Positions 23,287-29,345 of a stretch of 64,000 nucleotides of DNA are shown piece by piece. The stretch lies in NCBI GenBank assembly GCA_002284895.1, contig CP015605.1, forward strand, positions 868,001-932,000, given 5' to 3'. Made by a program: the position numbers and the translations under genes. This stretch comes from Actinobacteria bacterium IMCC19121 (GTDB lineage Bacteria > Actinomycetota > Actinomycetes > Nanopelagicales > Nanopelagicaceae). A model generated the notes under the pieces. It had not been told where the DNA came from, ran no database searches, and worked only from the letters and a program-made list of their open reading frames with translations. Every line of letters starts with the position of its first letter. Within the stretch, counting starts at the first letter, position 1.

Positions 23287-23784
23287 TTAAGCTGGTGAGC
23301 TTTGAATGTGTTCCGCGTTTTCGCGTGTCTTATCTCGCAAAAAATGTATTTCTTGCACAATTTGCCACTGCTTCATCTGCGATGCAATCTGGTTGCCATC
23401 TCGATTCAAAACCCTTTGTATGCCAACTTCGGCATCGATATCTAGCCAATACAAGGTTGCTCCAGCATCACGTACTACTTTTTGCCCCGCTCCTACTCCT
23501 TCTAAAATCAAAATATCAACGGGGTTAATCTTCCTTTTTGAATCAAAGGACATTGATTGCCAATTGAATATATCTATTTCAAAAGCAACCTTGTTCTGAT
23601 GTGATTTCACAATTGACTCTAAGCATTGAGTTAAACGCTCATCCAAAGCATTTTCCCAGCCGTTATAGAGATCATCCATGTGAATGACTTCAACAGACTT
23701 ATCAACTGATAACTCATCAAAGAAGTGAGCAGCTAGCGTTGTTTTACCAGCCCCTGCTCTGCCATCAATTGCTATTAAGGACAT
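23287..23784 (-). CDS. P-loop kinase, uridine-kinase-like; candidate thiamine kinase
   Basis: 165-residue small kinase. The P-loop is DGRAGAGKTTLA near residue 7; HMDDLYNGWE resembles the uridine kinase/phosphoribulokinase substrate motif; ILILEGVGAG is Walker B-like; a lid Arg is in IQRVLNRDG. The start lies 20 bp inside the upstream pnuC-type gene, and both follow a TPP riboswitch. PnuC-type carriers need a cytosolic kinase to trap their substrate, so this one is inferred to phosphorylate thiamine or a precursor. The fold is unlike the known thiamine kinases ThiK, ThiL and ThiN. Function not shown. Confidence 0.7.
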   Translation of the reverse strand: MSLIAIDGRAGAGKTTLAAHFFDELSVDKSVEVIHMDDLYNGWENALDERLTQCLESIVKSHQNKVAFEIDIFNWQSMSFDSKRKINPVDILILEGVGAGQKVVRDAGATLYWLDIDAEVGIQRVLNRDGNQIASQMKQWQIVQEIHFLRDKTRENAEHIQSSPA

Positions 23785-24340
23785 ACCAGCGCTTCCAGCC
23801 GATGATTGCTACGAGTGTGAAGAGGGCATATAAAACGGAAGTGAACCAATATCCAAGGTAGGCGTATTGAATTGTTCCTGCAGCATCAATGATGAGCCAA
23901 AGAACCCATGATTCAACTTTTTCATACACCATGAGGAGTTGTGCAACCAATGAACCAACAAGTAAAAATGCATCAGACCATGTTGCAGCTGCCCCAATAC
24001 GAGAGAGCAGGGGAGTAAGAAGTGAGACTGAAACAATTGTTCCAACGACCCAATACAAACGATTACGGTGATTTAAATATCCTGGCGCTGCACCAGTTGG
24101 CGCCCAATCACGCCAGCCCCACACGGCGGCAACAATAAAAACTATTTGTAGAGCTGCGCTTGCGAAGAGATCAACTTGATAAAAAAAGACCATATAGAGA
24201 GCACTGCTCAGTGCCCACCAAGGCCACGTAATGCGCTTTCCAGTTGTGCCAAGCCAGACTCCTACAAATGAAGTTATGGCTGCAATAAATTCAAGAACTG
24301 AGACTTCATAGCCCCAGGCTGTGAAAATGATGGATGACAT
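23765..24340 (-). CDS. pnuT: PnuC-family vitamin transporter, probably thiamine (PnuT)
   Basis: 191 residues, about seven membrane helices. The family features are WPWWALSSALYMVFFYQVDL, a GWRDW stretch, and WVLWLIIDAAGTIQYAYLG, matching PnuC (nicotinamide riboside) and its paralogue PnuT (thiamine). The leader carries a TPP riboswitch ending in the AAGGAAAG ribosome site 3-10 nt before the ATG, which favours thiamine as substrate. Overlap with the downstream kinase gene suggests uptake coupled to phosphorylation. Confidence 0.85.
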   Translation of the reverse strand: MSSIIFTAWGYEVSVLEFIAAITSFVGVWLGTTGKRITWPWWALSSALYMVFFYQVDLFASAALQIVFIVAAVWGWRDWAPTGAAPGYLNHRNRLYWVVGTIVSVSLLTPLLSRIGAAATWSDAFLLVGSLVAQLLMVYEKVESWVLWLIIDAAGTIQYAYLGYWFTSVLYALFTLVAIIGWKRWYVLNSN

Positions 24341-24345
24341 GTCTT

Positions 24346-24430
24346 TCCTTTCCGCATCCGCATTACCGGACGGGTCAATCGGTCGGTTTGAATTTCAAAC
24401 CCTCTCAGCCGCATGCGGCTCCCGTGGTTA
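24346..24430 (-). promoter_or_regulatory. TPP (thiamine pyrophosphate) riboswitch
   Basis: Read on the minus strand, the leader holds ACGGGAG, a short P2 stem, the invariant CTGAGAG, a P3 hairpin (GGTTTGAA/TTCAAACC), then TCCG-GTAATG-CGGA and GCGGAAAGG, matching the TPP box elements (CUGAGA and the UAAUGC loop with flanking stem). It ends in the ribosome site of the PnuC-type gene, so control is probably by hiding that site when TPP is bound. Confidence 0.85.
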
Positions 24431-24432
24431 TT

Positions 24433-24438
24433 AGAGTA
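24433..24438 (-). promoter_or_regulatory. Probable -10 element for the riboswitch transcript
   Basis: TACTCT on the minus strand just before the riboswitch; it shares two bases with the opposite-facing TAGCGT of crtYc. If used, the RNA begins almost at ACGGGAG, leaving nearly no 5' side for stem P1; a promoter further up inside crtYc is the alternative. Confidence 0.4.
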
Positions 24439-24448: not shown

Positions 24449-24775
24449 GTGCAAAAGTATGGATACCTAGCAATGATTGTTTTCACCGTCATTGGCTCTT
24501 TTTGGCTAGAAGTATTTTTAAAGGTTGGGGTTCTCAAGCAATTTAAGCGGGTTGCCCTATCCATTGCCCCAGTAGCTTTTCTCTTTATCGCTTGGGATAA
24601 GTATGCAATCAGTCACGGCCACTGGTTCTTTGATCGAGATCAGATCCTTGGAATTTATGGACCTTGGTGTATTCCACTAGAGGAGTATTTGTTCTTCATC
24701 GTTGTTCCTATAGCAGCGCTCATGACTATTGAAGCTGTTCGCACAGTGAAGAAGCATTGGCAGGTCTATATATGA
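24449..24775 (+). CDS. crtYc: Lycopene cyclase subunit CrtYc
   Basis: 108-residue membrane protein with three helices. The conserved block is GIYGPWCIPLEEYLFFIVVP (Pro-Leu-Glu-Glu), the catalytic region of heterodimeric actinobacterial lycopene beta-cyclases. It overlaps crtYd by ATGA. CrtYc and CrtYd together close the rings of lycopene to gamma- or beta-carotene. GTG start chosen from the -10 spacing. Confidence 0.9.
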   Translation: MQKYGYLAMIVFTVIGSFWLEVFLKVGVLKQFKRVALSIAPVAFLFIAWDKYAISHGHWFFDRDQILGIYGPWCIPLEEYLFFIVVPIAALMTIEAVRTVKKHWQVYI

Positions 24776-25071
24776 CCTATACACAGATTGCAATCTTTGC
24801 TGTTCTCTTTGCAATTTCCTTTGATCTCTATTTATTCAATACACAGCTACTCAAGCGCAAAGTGTTTTGGACTTCTTACGCAATCATTGTTGGTTTCCAG
24901 CTACTTACTAATTGGTGGCTGACTTCAAGAAATATCGTGATGTATAGCCCAGATGCCATTATTGGCTGGCGCATCGCATCGGCTCCAGTGGAAGACCTGC
25001 TCTTTGGTTTTGCGCTAGTACTTGGCGTATTAACTAATTGGATACGGCTAGGCGCTTCAGATAAGCGGTAA
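24772..25071 (+). CDS. crtYd: Lycopene cyclase subunit CrtYd
   Basis: 99-residue, three-helix partner of CrtYc. The matching catalytic block is RIASAPVEDLLFGFALVLG (Pro-Val-Glu-Asp). ATG 24772 overlaps the crtYc stop. The 3' end runs 38 bp into the convergent crtB. Confidence 0.9.
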   Translation: MTYTQIAIFAVLFAISFDLYLFNTQLLKRKVFWTSYAIIVGFQLLTNWWLTSRNIVMYSPDAIIGWRIASAPVEDLLFGFALVLGVLTNWIRLGASDKR

Positions 25072-25906
25072 TAAAGACGCGTAATCTGCGGGCAGTGGAA
25101 GTCTTGGCACGTTTATTAAAAATGTCATAACCAATCTTTTCAACCTCATCAACAATTCCGCAGTAGAGCTCACTTGCAGCTTCAATACATGGGCGGCTAG
25201 ATGCTGCCAACATTTGGATTCCTGGAGTTGCCTCTTGTTGCAGTTGGCGCACACGAGCAATTTGGAACTTGAGTGCACTGATGATTTGTGGCGTTAGGAC
25301 GCGTTCTTCAAGCATTTCACGTGTAACACCGTGCTCGGCAAGCTCAGTAATAGGTAGATAAATACGGCCACGATCTAAATCTTCTCCCACATCGCGAATG
25401 AAGTTAGCTAACTGGAACGCAATGCCTAGCTTCTTGGCACATTCATAGGCACCGTCTTGCAGAACTCCAAGCACTGGAACCATTTCAAGGCCAATGACTG
25501 CGGCGGATCCATAGACATATTCAAGGAGATCTTCATAGGTTTGATATTCCTGCACCGTTAAATCCATAGTCATTGAGTGAAGAAAAGCTTCAAAGTGCTC
25601 ATGGGGGATTGCAAAAGTATTGACTGTGTCTATGAGTGAACGTCCGATTGCATCATTGCTTTGGCCACTCTTGAGGTCTTGCAGAATCTTGGCACCCCAC
25701 ACACCTAGAGCATCTGCCTTTTCCTGCACAGTAAGAGTTGATGCAAGATCATCAACAATTTCATCGGCATAGCGAGCAAAGCCATACAAGGCGTGAACAT
25801 ATTTGCGTTTAGCTTTAGGGAGAAGAAGTGTGGCTAAGTAATAGGTTTTGCCGTGAAGAGAATTTAACCTTTTGCACTCGGCATAGGATGCCTCTAGCTC
25901 ATCCAT
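25034..25906 (-). CDS. crtB: Phytoene synthase
   Basis: 290 residues, head-to-head condensation of two geranylgeranyl diphosphates to phytoene. Both Asp-rich motifs are present: YADEIVDD near residue 46 and RDVGEDLDRGRIYLP near residue 168. Starts immediately after the crtI stop (TAAATGG), third gene of a crtE-crtI-crtB unit. Confidence 0.95.
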   Translation of the reverse strand: MDELEASYAECKRLNSLHGKTYYLATLLLPKAKRKYVHALYGFARYADEIVDDLASTLTVQEKADALGVWGAKILQDLKSGQSNDAIGRSLIDTVNTFAIPHEHFEAFLHSMTMDLTVQEYQTYEDLLEYVYGSAAVIGLEMVPVLGVLQDGAYECAKKLGIAFQLANFIRDVGEDLDRGRIYLPITELAEHGVTREMLEERVLTPQIISALKFQIARVRQLQQEATPGIQMLAASSRPCIEAASELYCGIVDEVEKIGYDIFNKRAKTSTARRLRVFITAYLKRLAVSN

Positions 25907-27391
25907 TTACTTAACAGGTCCCACAATTCGCTCTGCAGCAAGTCGTCCAGAGATTAAAACCATTGGAACGCCAACGCCTGGTTGTGTTCCAGAACCGGCA
26001 AAGACAACATTTTCAATTCCTTGTGCCATGTTACGTGGTCTAAAGGGACCAGTTTGGAAGAATGTATGTGCGCTAGCAAACGGTGCACCCATCTCCATTC
26101 CTTGGTTTTTCCAATCAAGGGGAGTAGTCATCACTTCAGTTTCGATGGAATCTCCAAAGCCGCTGTAGCCGCGCTCTTCAATGGTCTTAATCATTTGATC
26201 ACGGTATGGACCGGCTTGTTTAGTCCAATCGATATTGCTATCTAGGTTAGGCGTTGGGAACAAAACATAATAAGAATGCTTACCTGGGGGAGCTAAATTG
26301 GGGTCATCATGAGTTGGAATGGTGACCAGAATGCTGGGATCACTCATCAACTGCTTTTTCTTGATCAGCTCATCAAAGACGCCATCCCAAGAGTGACCAA
26401 AGTGGATGTTGTGGTGGGCCGTAAAGTCATATTTCTTACTTGAACCAATCAACAGAGTCACACAAGAAGGTGAGTACTTCAGGCGCTTAATTGATACAGG
26501 GGTTTTACCGAGCAACTCTTTGTATGCCACAGGTAAATCCGGATTCAAAATAACGGCGTCGCACTCATAGCGCTCACCAGATTCGGTAATAACTGCTTTT
26601 GCGCGGCCATTGCTGACTTCTACATTTGTCACGGTGGTGTTGTATTTAAAGACCACTCCATGCTTTTCGGCAGCTGCTGCCAGCGCGCGTGGAACTGCGT
26701 GCATGCCGCCCTTAGGAAAGAAAACACCATTCACTGAGTCCATATATGCAATGACGGCATAGATAGCTAGAGCTTGCTGCGGGCTTACTCCTGCATACAT
26801 TGCTTGGAATGAATAAACCTTTTGCAGACGAGGGTCTTTCATAAATTGATTTACTTTAGGAGAGAGTTTGCGAAAGCCTCCGAGTGCTATTAAGCGGGCA
26901 AGGTTAGGCGTGAGCAAGTTCAGGGGACTATCGATGTTTCTATCGATGAAATCATTCATCTCATACTTATAGAGTTTTGTAACAAAATCTACGTATCTGC
27001 GATATCCAGCGGCTTCATCGCTACTGATGTGCTTTGCAATCTCTGCTTCCATCTCATTGGTATCAGAGTGCACATCTAACTGTGATCCATCTGCATAGAA
27101 AGCGCGATAGAGAGGTGTGAGTGGAGTGAGCTCCAGCCAATCTTTCATATCTTCGCCCACACAGTTAAAGGCTTCATTGATAAGTGATGGCATTGTGAGA
27201 ACAGATGGCCCGGTATCAAATGCATAACCATCTTTGTTGAGCAGACCATTTCGTCCACCAGGAACACTTTCGCGCTCTAATACAGTGACTTTTCGACCAG
27301 CACCAGCAAGTCGAAGTGCTGCGCTTAATCCAGCAAGGCCTGCACCAACAACCACAACGTGATCTGTGGGGCCTTTAACTCTGGCAACCAT
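25907..27391 (-). CDS. crtI: Phytoene desaturase
   Basis: 494 residues. N-terminal FAD motif VVVVGAGLAGLSAALRLAG followed by VLERESVPGGRNG; substrate region FDTGPSVLTMPSL; and the C-terminal CrtI signature FAGSGTQPGVGVPMVLISG. It introduces four double bonds to give lycopene. Sits between crtE and crtB without gaps. Confidence 0.95.
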   Translation of the reverse strand: MVARVKGPTDHVVVVGAGLAGLSAALRLAGAGRKVTVLERESVPGGRNGLLNKDGYAFDTGPSVLTMPSLINEAFNCVGEDMKDWLELTPLTPLYRAFYADGSQLDVHSDTNEMEAEIAKHISSDEAAGYRRYVDFVTKLYKYEMNDFIDRNIDSPLNLLTPNLARLIALGGFRKLSPKVNQFMKDPRLQKVYSFQAMYAGVSPQQALAIYAVIAYMDSVNGVFFPKGGMHAVPRALAAAAEKHGVVFKYNTTVTNVEVSNGRAKAVITESGERYECDAVILNPDLPVAYKELLGKTPVSIKRLKYSPSCVTLLIGSSKKYDFTAHHNIHFGHSWDGVFDELIKKKQLMSDPSILVTIPTHDDPNLAPPGKHSYYVLFPTPNLDSNIDWTKQAGPYRDQMIKTIEERGYSGFGDSIETEVMTTPLDWKNQGMEMGAPFASAHTFFQTGPFRPRNMAQGIENVVFAGSGTQPGVGVPMVLISGRLAAERIVGPVK

Positions 27392-28468
27392 TTACATACT
27401 CCGCTTCGTGGCAATCAGGGCTAGCTCATTGAGTAAATCTCGTCCAGCGTTATCGATAACTGGGTTTTCAATAGCTTTTAATGCCTTTGAGGTTAATTCA
27501 TCAATCATAGTTTCAAGGGCTGCTTTTGCGCCTGTTGAAACAATCATCTCCTGCAAGATAGCCACGCCTTTTTCATCTATATCGTTCTTACCAAAATACT
27601 TGCGGCTCTCAACTTTCATAGCTTCAGTGCATTTTGCATCGGTCATTGCGATAAGGGCTGTGCGCTTTCCTTCACGCAGATCATCCCCAGCAGGTTTACC
27701 CGTGACAGATGGATCACCAAAGACGCCCAGTAAGTCATCGCGAAATTGGAAAGCCTCACCTAGGGGTAATCCGTAGTCAGAGAGAGCTGCAAGAAGTGCG
27801 GAGGAGGCATCTGTGGCAAGGAGTGCGCCCATGTGAAGTGGACGCTCAATTGTGTATTTACCTGATTTGTATCGAGCAATCTTCATTGAACGATCAAGAT
27901 CTGTGTTCTTTTGTGTTTGTTCATGAATATCTAAGAACTGTCCAGCCATTAACTCAACGCGCATCTCATCAAAGATGGGCATGACGCGGCGAAGCTCATC
28001 GGTTGAAATACCTGAGGTATTAAGGAGTTGGTTTGACCAGACAAGTGCTAAATCGCCGAGCAGAACTGCAGAAGCTAAACCGTATGCAGGTGCAAAACCT
28101 TCTAGAGCATCTTGCACATGGATAGATTCAAAGTGGCGATGAATAGATGGCTTTCCACGACGTGTGTCAGATCCATCCATTAAGTCATCATGAATCAGCG
28201 CACACGCTTGAAGTAGTTCTAGGCACGAGATGGCTTTAGTAGTTGCTGGAGTTAATGAACCACCTGTGCTCTTGATTCCAGCATAGGCAAAGAGAGGGCG
28301 TAATCGCTTACCGCTATCAAGAAGAAAAGATGAGAGAGCAGAGGAAACTGGTTGTAATTCAGGTGAGATTGAAAGCAGGTATGTGCTCTGATCACGCATA
28401 AATTGAGTGAGTTCAATCTCTACGCAATCGCGCGTCTCTTGTAACTCCGATTTACTCAGTGAATTCAC
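27392..28468 (-). CDS. crtE: Geranylgeranyl diphosphate synthase
   Basis: 358-residue trans-prenyltransferase. First Asp-rich motif LIHDDLMDGSDTRRGKPS, second FQFRDDLLGVFGD, and GKRLRPLF near the N-terminus bind the diphosphates. It makes C20 diphosphate for crtB. An open frame continues upstream to 28579 but would overlap metF; GTG 28468 is preferred because TATCGT lies 6 nt before it. First gene of the crtE-crtI-crtB unit. Confidence 0.9.
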   Translation of the reverse strand: MNSLSKSELQETRDCVEIELTQFMRDQSTYLLSISPELQPVSSALSSFLLDSGKRLRPLFAYAGIKSTGGSLTPATTKAISCLELLQACALIHDDLMDGSDTRRGKPSIHRHFESIHVQDALEGFAPAYGLASAVLLGDLALVWSNQLLNTSGISTDELRRVMPIFDEMRVELMAGQFLDIHEQTQKNTDLDRSMKIARYKSGKYTIERPLHMGALLATDASSALLAALSDYGLPLGEAFQFRDDLLGVFGDPSVTGKPAGDDLREGKRTALIAMTDAKCTEAMKVESRKYFGKNDIDEKGVAILQEMIVSTGAKAALETMIDELTSKALKAIENPVIDNAGRDLLNELALIATKRSM

Positions 28469-28474
28469 GTAGTA

Positions 28475-28480
28475 ACGATA
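28475..28480 (-). promoter_or_regulatory. -10 element of leaderless crtE
   Basis: TATCGT on the minus strand, six bases (tactac), then GTG 28468. It overlaps the metF -10 within the palindrome GATATC at 28477-28482. Confidence 0.6.
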
Positions 28481-28484
28481 TCCT
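28479..28484 (+). promoter_or_regulatory. -10 element of leaderless metF
   Basis: TATCCT, six bases (gagtca), then ATG 28491; mirror image of the crtE promoter. Confidence 0.6.
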
Positions 28485-28490
28485 GAGTCA

Positions 28491-29345
28491 ATGGCATTCC
28501 GCACTTCGTACTCATTTGAATTCTTTCCACCCAAGGATTCAGAGGGTGAAGACCGTCTTTGGGCAGCTGTAAGTGCCATTGAAAAATACTCCCCAGAATT
28601 TGTCTCCGTTACTTTTGGTGCAGGTGGTTCAACCCAACACCGAACTATTGGAGTGACTCAAGAGATAACCCGTCGAACTCAAATTTCAACTGTTGCTCAT
28701 TTGACTTGTGTTGGTTTAAGTAAGCAAGAATTGATTACTGTTCTGCACACCTACAGAGATGCAAAGATTCCTGCGATCCTAGCGTTGCGCGGTGATCCCC
28801 ATGGTGGACCACGAGCACCGTGGACACCGAACTCGGCTGGGTTTTCTCACGCCGATGCACTTGTTCAACTCATTGCAGTCTTTGGCGGTTTTAAAATCGG
28901 TGTTGCCGCATTCCCCGACGGACACCCATCTTCAAATGGAAACTATGAAAAAGATATTGAAGTTTTGCTACGTAAAGAAAATTTAGGTGCATCCTTTGCG
29001 ACTACCCAATTTTTCTTTGATGTTGCGAAGTGGGAGAAATTAATTGAATCATTGCAATCACACGGCTCAAACTTGCCGATAATTCCTGGGATTTTGCCAG
29101 TCACAAATGTGAAGCAGCTCCATCGCATGGCAGAACTTGGTGGAACCGAGATTCCAGACCACATTGCTAAACGCTTTGCAGCTGTTGAAGACGATGCTGA
29201 CGCTGTGCGCAAGTTGGGTATCGAGATTGCCACCGAGCTTTGTGATGAATTGATCGCTGCTGGAGCTCCAAGCCTCCACTTCTATACAATGAACACAGCA
29301 GGCCCCACTCAAGAGATAATCAGGAATTTAGAAAATGCTCAGTAA
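28491..29345 (+). CDS. metF: Methylenetetrahydrofolate reductase
   Basis: 284-residue TIM-barrel flavoprotein that reduces 5,10-methylene-THF to 5-methyl-THF for methionine synthesis. SFEFFPPKDSEGEDRL at the N-terminus, VSVTFGAGGST, ILALRGDPHGG and ATTQFFFD are typical, and a Glu in the FEFFPPK motif is the catalytic acid. It overlaps the next gene by 11 bp. Confidence 0.95.
   Translation: MAFRTSYSFEFFPPKDSEGEDRLWAAVSAIEKYSPEFVSVTFGAGGSTQHRTIGVTQEITRRTQISTVAHLTCVGLSKQELITVLHTYRDAKIPAILALRGDPHGGPRAPWTPNSAGFSHADALVQLIAVFGGFKIGVAAFPDGHPSSNGNYEKDIEVLLRKENLGASFATTQFFFDVAKWEKLIESLQSHGSNLPIIPGILPVTNVKQLHRMAELGGTEIPDHIAKRFAAVEDDADAVRKLGIEIATELCDELIAAGAPSLHFYTMNTAGPTQEIIRNLENAQ

Follow-up and report, generated by a model that had tools for sequence, protein, structure and literature searches.

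A two-gene operon lies on the minus strand of a 64,000-nucleotide stretch of the Actinobacteria bacterium IMCC19121 genome (contig CP015605.1, positions 868,001 to 932,000), referred to below as the window. Its parts are as follows.

24332-24435, minus strand: TPP riboswitch aptamer, a divergent RF00059 member (covariance-model match and covariation)
23765-24340, minus strand: pnuT, a PnuC-type carrier of 191 aa, probable thiamine transporter (PF04973; TPP riboswitch upstream)
23287-23784, minus strand: P-loop kinase of the uridine-kinase/PRK fold, 165 aa, proposed TMP-forming thiamine kinase (PF00485 and fold)

Transcription runs from the aptamer (24435-24332) through pnuT (24340-23765) to the kinase (23784-23287), whose start lies inside the end of pnuT with an overlap of 20 nt. 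The PF04973 profile spans residues 14-186 of the pnuT product (E 4.2e-37), placing it in the PnuC/PnuT family. Together, the matches to RF00059, PF04973 and PF00485 bear out the order of riboswitch, PnuC-type carrier and kinase given in a preliminary description of this DNA. Both genes are under purifying selection as judged by dN/dS; between the window and locus L005 the kinase has a dN of 0.045 and a dS of 0.47, and in its closest pairs dN is about one tenth of dS. Carotenoid genes stand beside the operon at 24449-28579 of the window (a lycopene cyclase-like pair and phytoene synthase-, desaturase- and prenyl synthase-like ORFs) and are syntenic in family f34.

The aptamer and its linkage to pnuT and the kinase

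A default Rfam scan of the window returned zero matches, since the aptamer scores below the RF00059 gathering score of 54.3. A permissive scan recovered it at 38.7 bits (E 1.6e-6) over 105 of 105 model positions, with the conserved CUGAGA core retained, and it is the sole TPP match in the whole 1,506,415-base genome. Despite the sub-gathering score, the match is more than chance, because an aptamer stands immediately upstream of pnuT in 23 of 23 genus loci tested and its helices covary over 24 aligned copies. In that alignment 98.2% of helix cells are paired and 11 of 21 helix pairs carry double-sided changes, a count that 0 of 500 shuffles equalled, while slid controls collapse to at most 42% paired. 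These comparative counts carry the helix claim; folding of the single window aptamer gave a z-score that was not significant. Aptamers from family f34 score 65-67 bits, above the gathering score. Since the purine-rich 3' end of the aptamer runs directly into the pnuT start codon at 24340, the element likely acts on translation of pnuT.

The kinase was found in 68 of 73 genus genomes, and the five that lack it are 52-83% complete. Wherever a genus locus includes the pnuT-side sequence, pnuT lies directly upstream of the kinase on the same strand. Orthologues of pnuT occur in all sampled genera of family f1 except g49 and one g43 genome, and also in families f39, f34 and f32; the pair of pnuT and the uridine-kinase-like kinase extends to the other sampled f1 genera, with the same two exceptions, and to f39.

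Scanning public genomes for pnuT yielded 80 loci. A P-loop kinase comes next after pnuT in all 79 with downstream room, which agrees with the proposal that the carrier has a fixed kinase partner; 64 of these kinases belong to the uridine-kinase-like family, so that its presence beside other TPP riboswitches is confirmed, and 15 are of an unrelated NadR-like type. An aptamer precedes pnuT in 78 of the 80 loci, a figure that for close relatives holds partly by construction, the search model having been trained on 24 loci of the same lineages. No riboswitch was found at the other two, L124 and L171, both of them pnuT-kinase pairs. At L124 a reading frame upstream, which by eye resembles thioredoxin, stops just before pnuT. 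Labels look wrong at five freshwater actinobacterial pnuT loci: Bifidobacterium breve for L128, L129, L148 and L170, and Streptomyces griseus for L191.

The kinase and its relatives

With the P-loop GRAGAGKT and a PF00485 score of 31.7 bits against a gathering cut-off of 22, the kinase belongs to the PRK/uridine kinase superfamily. Its best NCBIfam match is PRK06547 (NF005115), annotated as 'hypothetical protein', at 87 bits against a cut-off of 173; the uridine kinase model udk (TIGR00235) gives 41.5 bits against 220.3. The TPK domain PF04263 is absent among the best 25 of its 31 Pfam matches. The predicted structure has a mean pLDDT of 96 and is closest to uridine-cytidine kinases (UCK2, 1uej: Z 18.7 over 162 residues at 2.3 Å). 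Aligned to the Thermus uridine kinase, it lacks both the ribose-binding motif NYDHPDAFD and the base-binding His of YDFxxH, which we take to be the nucleoside-binding positions in that enzyme. These results support the earlier description of the overlapping gene as coding for a uridine-kinase-like protein, yet by sequence it is no uridine kinase.

Residues D37 and E95, like the Walker A lysine and the lid arginines R124/R128, are invariant or nearly so, and on this conservation the kinase should be catalytically active. In a maximum-likelihood tree the pnuT-linked kinases group together, apart from unlinked actinobacterial homologues, with weak support at the deep fork (63/30). The linked clade carries V125 (G, A or W in unlinked homologues) and M137 (where 13 of 14 unlinked homologues have W) near the lid arginines, both of which are candidate specificity residues. 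In short, the kinase shares its best sequence family with PRK06547 and its fold with the uridine kinases, but differs from them in scoring below the PRK06547 cut-off, in having V125 and M137 of its own and in lacking the substrate motifs of uridine kinases.

ThiE-positive Actinobacteria commonly carry unlinked homologues, which may do another job. Examination of their neighbourhoods within the class found no pnuT nearby, and the one examined in detail, L034, has no thiamine genes. At L043 (5051-7159, minus strand) a homologue forms the N-terminal part of a fusion with a chorismate-binding enzyme of the anthranilate/aminodeoxychorismate synthase type. In several large genomes (G090 and G110 of family f19, and G404) a second PnuC-type gene occurs about 9 kb away from an unlinked homologue.

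A different situation is seen in G182, a 2.2-Mb genome of family f1, which has ThiE (201 bits) and carries the kinase at the same locus (L113) with neither pnuT nor riboswitch. Because its kinase nests inside the linked group in the tree, the simpler reading is that G182 lost pnuT; the case shows that the kinase can persist without the operon. In G413, likewise ThiE-positive, the kinase is missing and pnuT has no close orthologue. In E. coli, a thiamine kinase, ThiK, occurs alongside ThiE and ThiL (PMC4112796).

The thiamine pathway and a proposed uptake-and-trap mechanism

The genome, a single 1.5-Mb contig, is 99.95% complete. Pathway genes were searched family by family for TPK, ThiE/TenI, ThiD and ThiL. 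Thiamine pyrophosphokinase (PF04263) has no match anywhere in the genome, ThiE/TenI is absent, and ThiD has no match above its cut-off, only one of 25 bits below it. The genome does encode ThiL, a 306-aa protein scoring 210 bits where the cut-off is 184. The expectation that the genome would lack these enzymes therefore held for TPK, ThiE and ThiD and failed for ThiL, and the normal TPK elsewhere in the genome that the preliminary description had named as counter-evidence was not found.

The same pattern holds across the genus, where TPK occurs in none of the genomes and ThiL exceeds its cut-off in nearly all. No convincing ThiE was found in the genus: weak, sub-cut-off ThiE-like fragments were rejected as distant TIM-barrel matches, and two genomes, G021 and G268, passed the cut-off by summed score only (28.8 and 29.9 bits). 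A convincing ThiE was also missing from all 27 genomes with pnuT that were tested in families f1, f39, f34 and f32. G117, of family f32, has ThiL and lacks ThiE, TPK and the uridine-kinase-like kinase; the ThiL test covered the genus and this genome. TPK matches in other families of the class cover 34-45 positions of ORFs that are about 380-600 aa long; they were not counted and look like SteA-type proteins.

A cell with ThiL and no ThiE requires a source of TMP, either phosphorylation of thiamine or imported TMP. With ThiL present and ThiE and TPK absent, the missing step among the four families tested is thus thiamine to TMP. Salvage of HMP or thiazole was rejected, as ThiE and ThiD are absent, which makes the HMP substrate raised in the preliminary description unlikely. 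A published account of the acI lineage reports the riboswitch and PnuT and describes nearly all de novo and salvage thiamine enzymes as missing (Kang et al. 2017, PMC5301498). Given the TPP riboswitch upstream and the gap in the thiamine pathway, the pnuT product is very probably PnuT, a thiamine-specific carrier, as first suggested.

From the observed parts, their linkage, the pathway genes present and missing and their conservation, we consider it likely that the operon serves to take up thiamine and trap it by means of a TMP-forming thiamine kinase. At low TPP, the riboswitch would permit expression of pnuT and the kinase. Thiamine would equilibrate across the membrane through PnuT, and the uridine-kinase-like protein would use ATP to convert it to TMP, which could not exit via PnuT. 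The second phosphate would be added by ThiL, whose gene lies elsewhere in the genome, and the resulting TPP would switch the riboswitch off.

The preliminary description had left the choice between a thiamine kinase and a pyrophosphokinase, and the former is favoured here. P-loop kinases of the uridine-kinase type transfer a single phosphate. Formation of TPP in one step would suit a genome without TPK, and the gene after pnuT in Bacteroides is tnr3, of the pyrophosphokinase type (PMC5613172); nonetheless, it would leave ThiL, retained in a streamlined genome without ThiE, with no substrate, and we regard this option as improbable.

It is about equally improbable that the protein phosphorylates uridine/cytidine or another nucleoside and merely shares the transcript. 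The structural proximity to UCK2 and the occurrence of the family beyond pnuT loci would fit such a role, but the absent nucleoside-binding motifs and the low udk score argue against it, as do the invariant linkage to pnuT and the kinase's replacement in this slot by one of a different family.

Least probable of all, by a small step, is that the pair serves the uptake and trapping of nicotinamide riboside and that the riboswitch is no TPP sensor: PnuC-NadR pairs do trap this compound (PMC7221760), the kinase has a profile match to human NRK1 (E 1.8e-6) and the protein in the slot of other families matches NadR, but a genuine TPP aptamer, over the gathering score, stands in a family with the NadR-like partner, the same genomes show the thiamine pathway gap, and three of four acI strains make NAD de novo according to the 2017 paper (PMC5301498).

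Two kinases in one slot and comparison with known systems

In families f34 and f32 (L108-L112), the slot behind the riboswitch-controlled pnuT is occupied by an AAA_28 protein (E 1e-20 to 1e-25) that by sequence and by Foldseek is closest to the NadR kinase domain. Judged by eye, the f34 flanks are those of the window, with a Ser/Thr kinase on one side and the carotenoid genes on the other, so that one kinase seems to have been swapped for the other in place. The need for a trapping kinase at this position is hinted at most strongly by the use of two unrelated kinases in one slot. Relatives of both families, human NRK1 and NadR, phosphorylate nicotinamide riboside. We lean towards the view that the uridine-kinase-like and NadR-kinase-like families, which are unrelated, were each recruited on their own to make TMP from thiamine behind riboswitch-controlled PnuT; they would then represent two new families of thiamine kinase, neither related to ThiK or TPK.

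The arrangement has several partial counterparts. The Bacteroidetes operons of TPP riboswitch, pnuT and tnr3 likewise place an enzyme that phosphorylates thiamine (here, as proposed) downstream of PnuT, whereas the window encodes a P-loop protein of the uridine-kinase fold and the second phosphate is proposed to come from ThiL. PnuC-NadR trapping of nicotinamide riboside resembles it in that a P-loop kinase makes a PnuC-family carrier one-way, and the f34/f32 kinase is itself NadR-kinase-like; the window differs in its TPP riboswitch, its thiamine pathway gap and a kinase of another family. In E. coli, ThiK (YcfN) converts thiamine to TMP and ThiL converts TMP to TPP, a sequence of two kinase reactions as is proposed here. 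ThiK, however, is of the aminoglycoside phosphotransferase/choline kinase type, unrelated in fold to the window kinase, and E. coli imports thiamine by an ABC importer.

A further counterpart is the acI THI-pnuC locus described in connection with thiamine auxotrophy (Kang et al. 2017, PMC5301498), which belongs to the same lineage and for which the riboswitch and PnuT had already been proposed. The available part of that account does not mention the kinase and calls the salvage enzymes nearly all missing. A search of the open-access literature for papers treating PRK06547, or a P-loop thiamine kinase linked to PnuT, found none.

In most lakes the acI actinobacteria are the most abundant bacteria, according to the same source (PMC5301498). 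They cannot make vitamin B1, and their route from thiamine to its active form had been left open. If the proposed function is correct, a thiamine kinase of a new type would fill this gap, and the slot behind pnuT would provide a clean case of unrelated enzymes doing one job at the same chromosomal place. The uncharacterised PRK06547-like kinases of Actinobacteria would also gain a first lead to their function.
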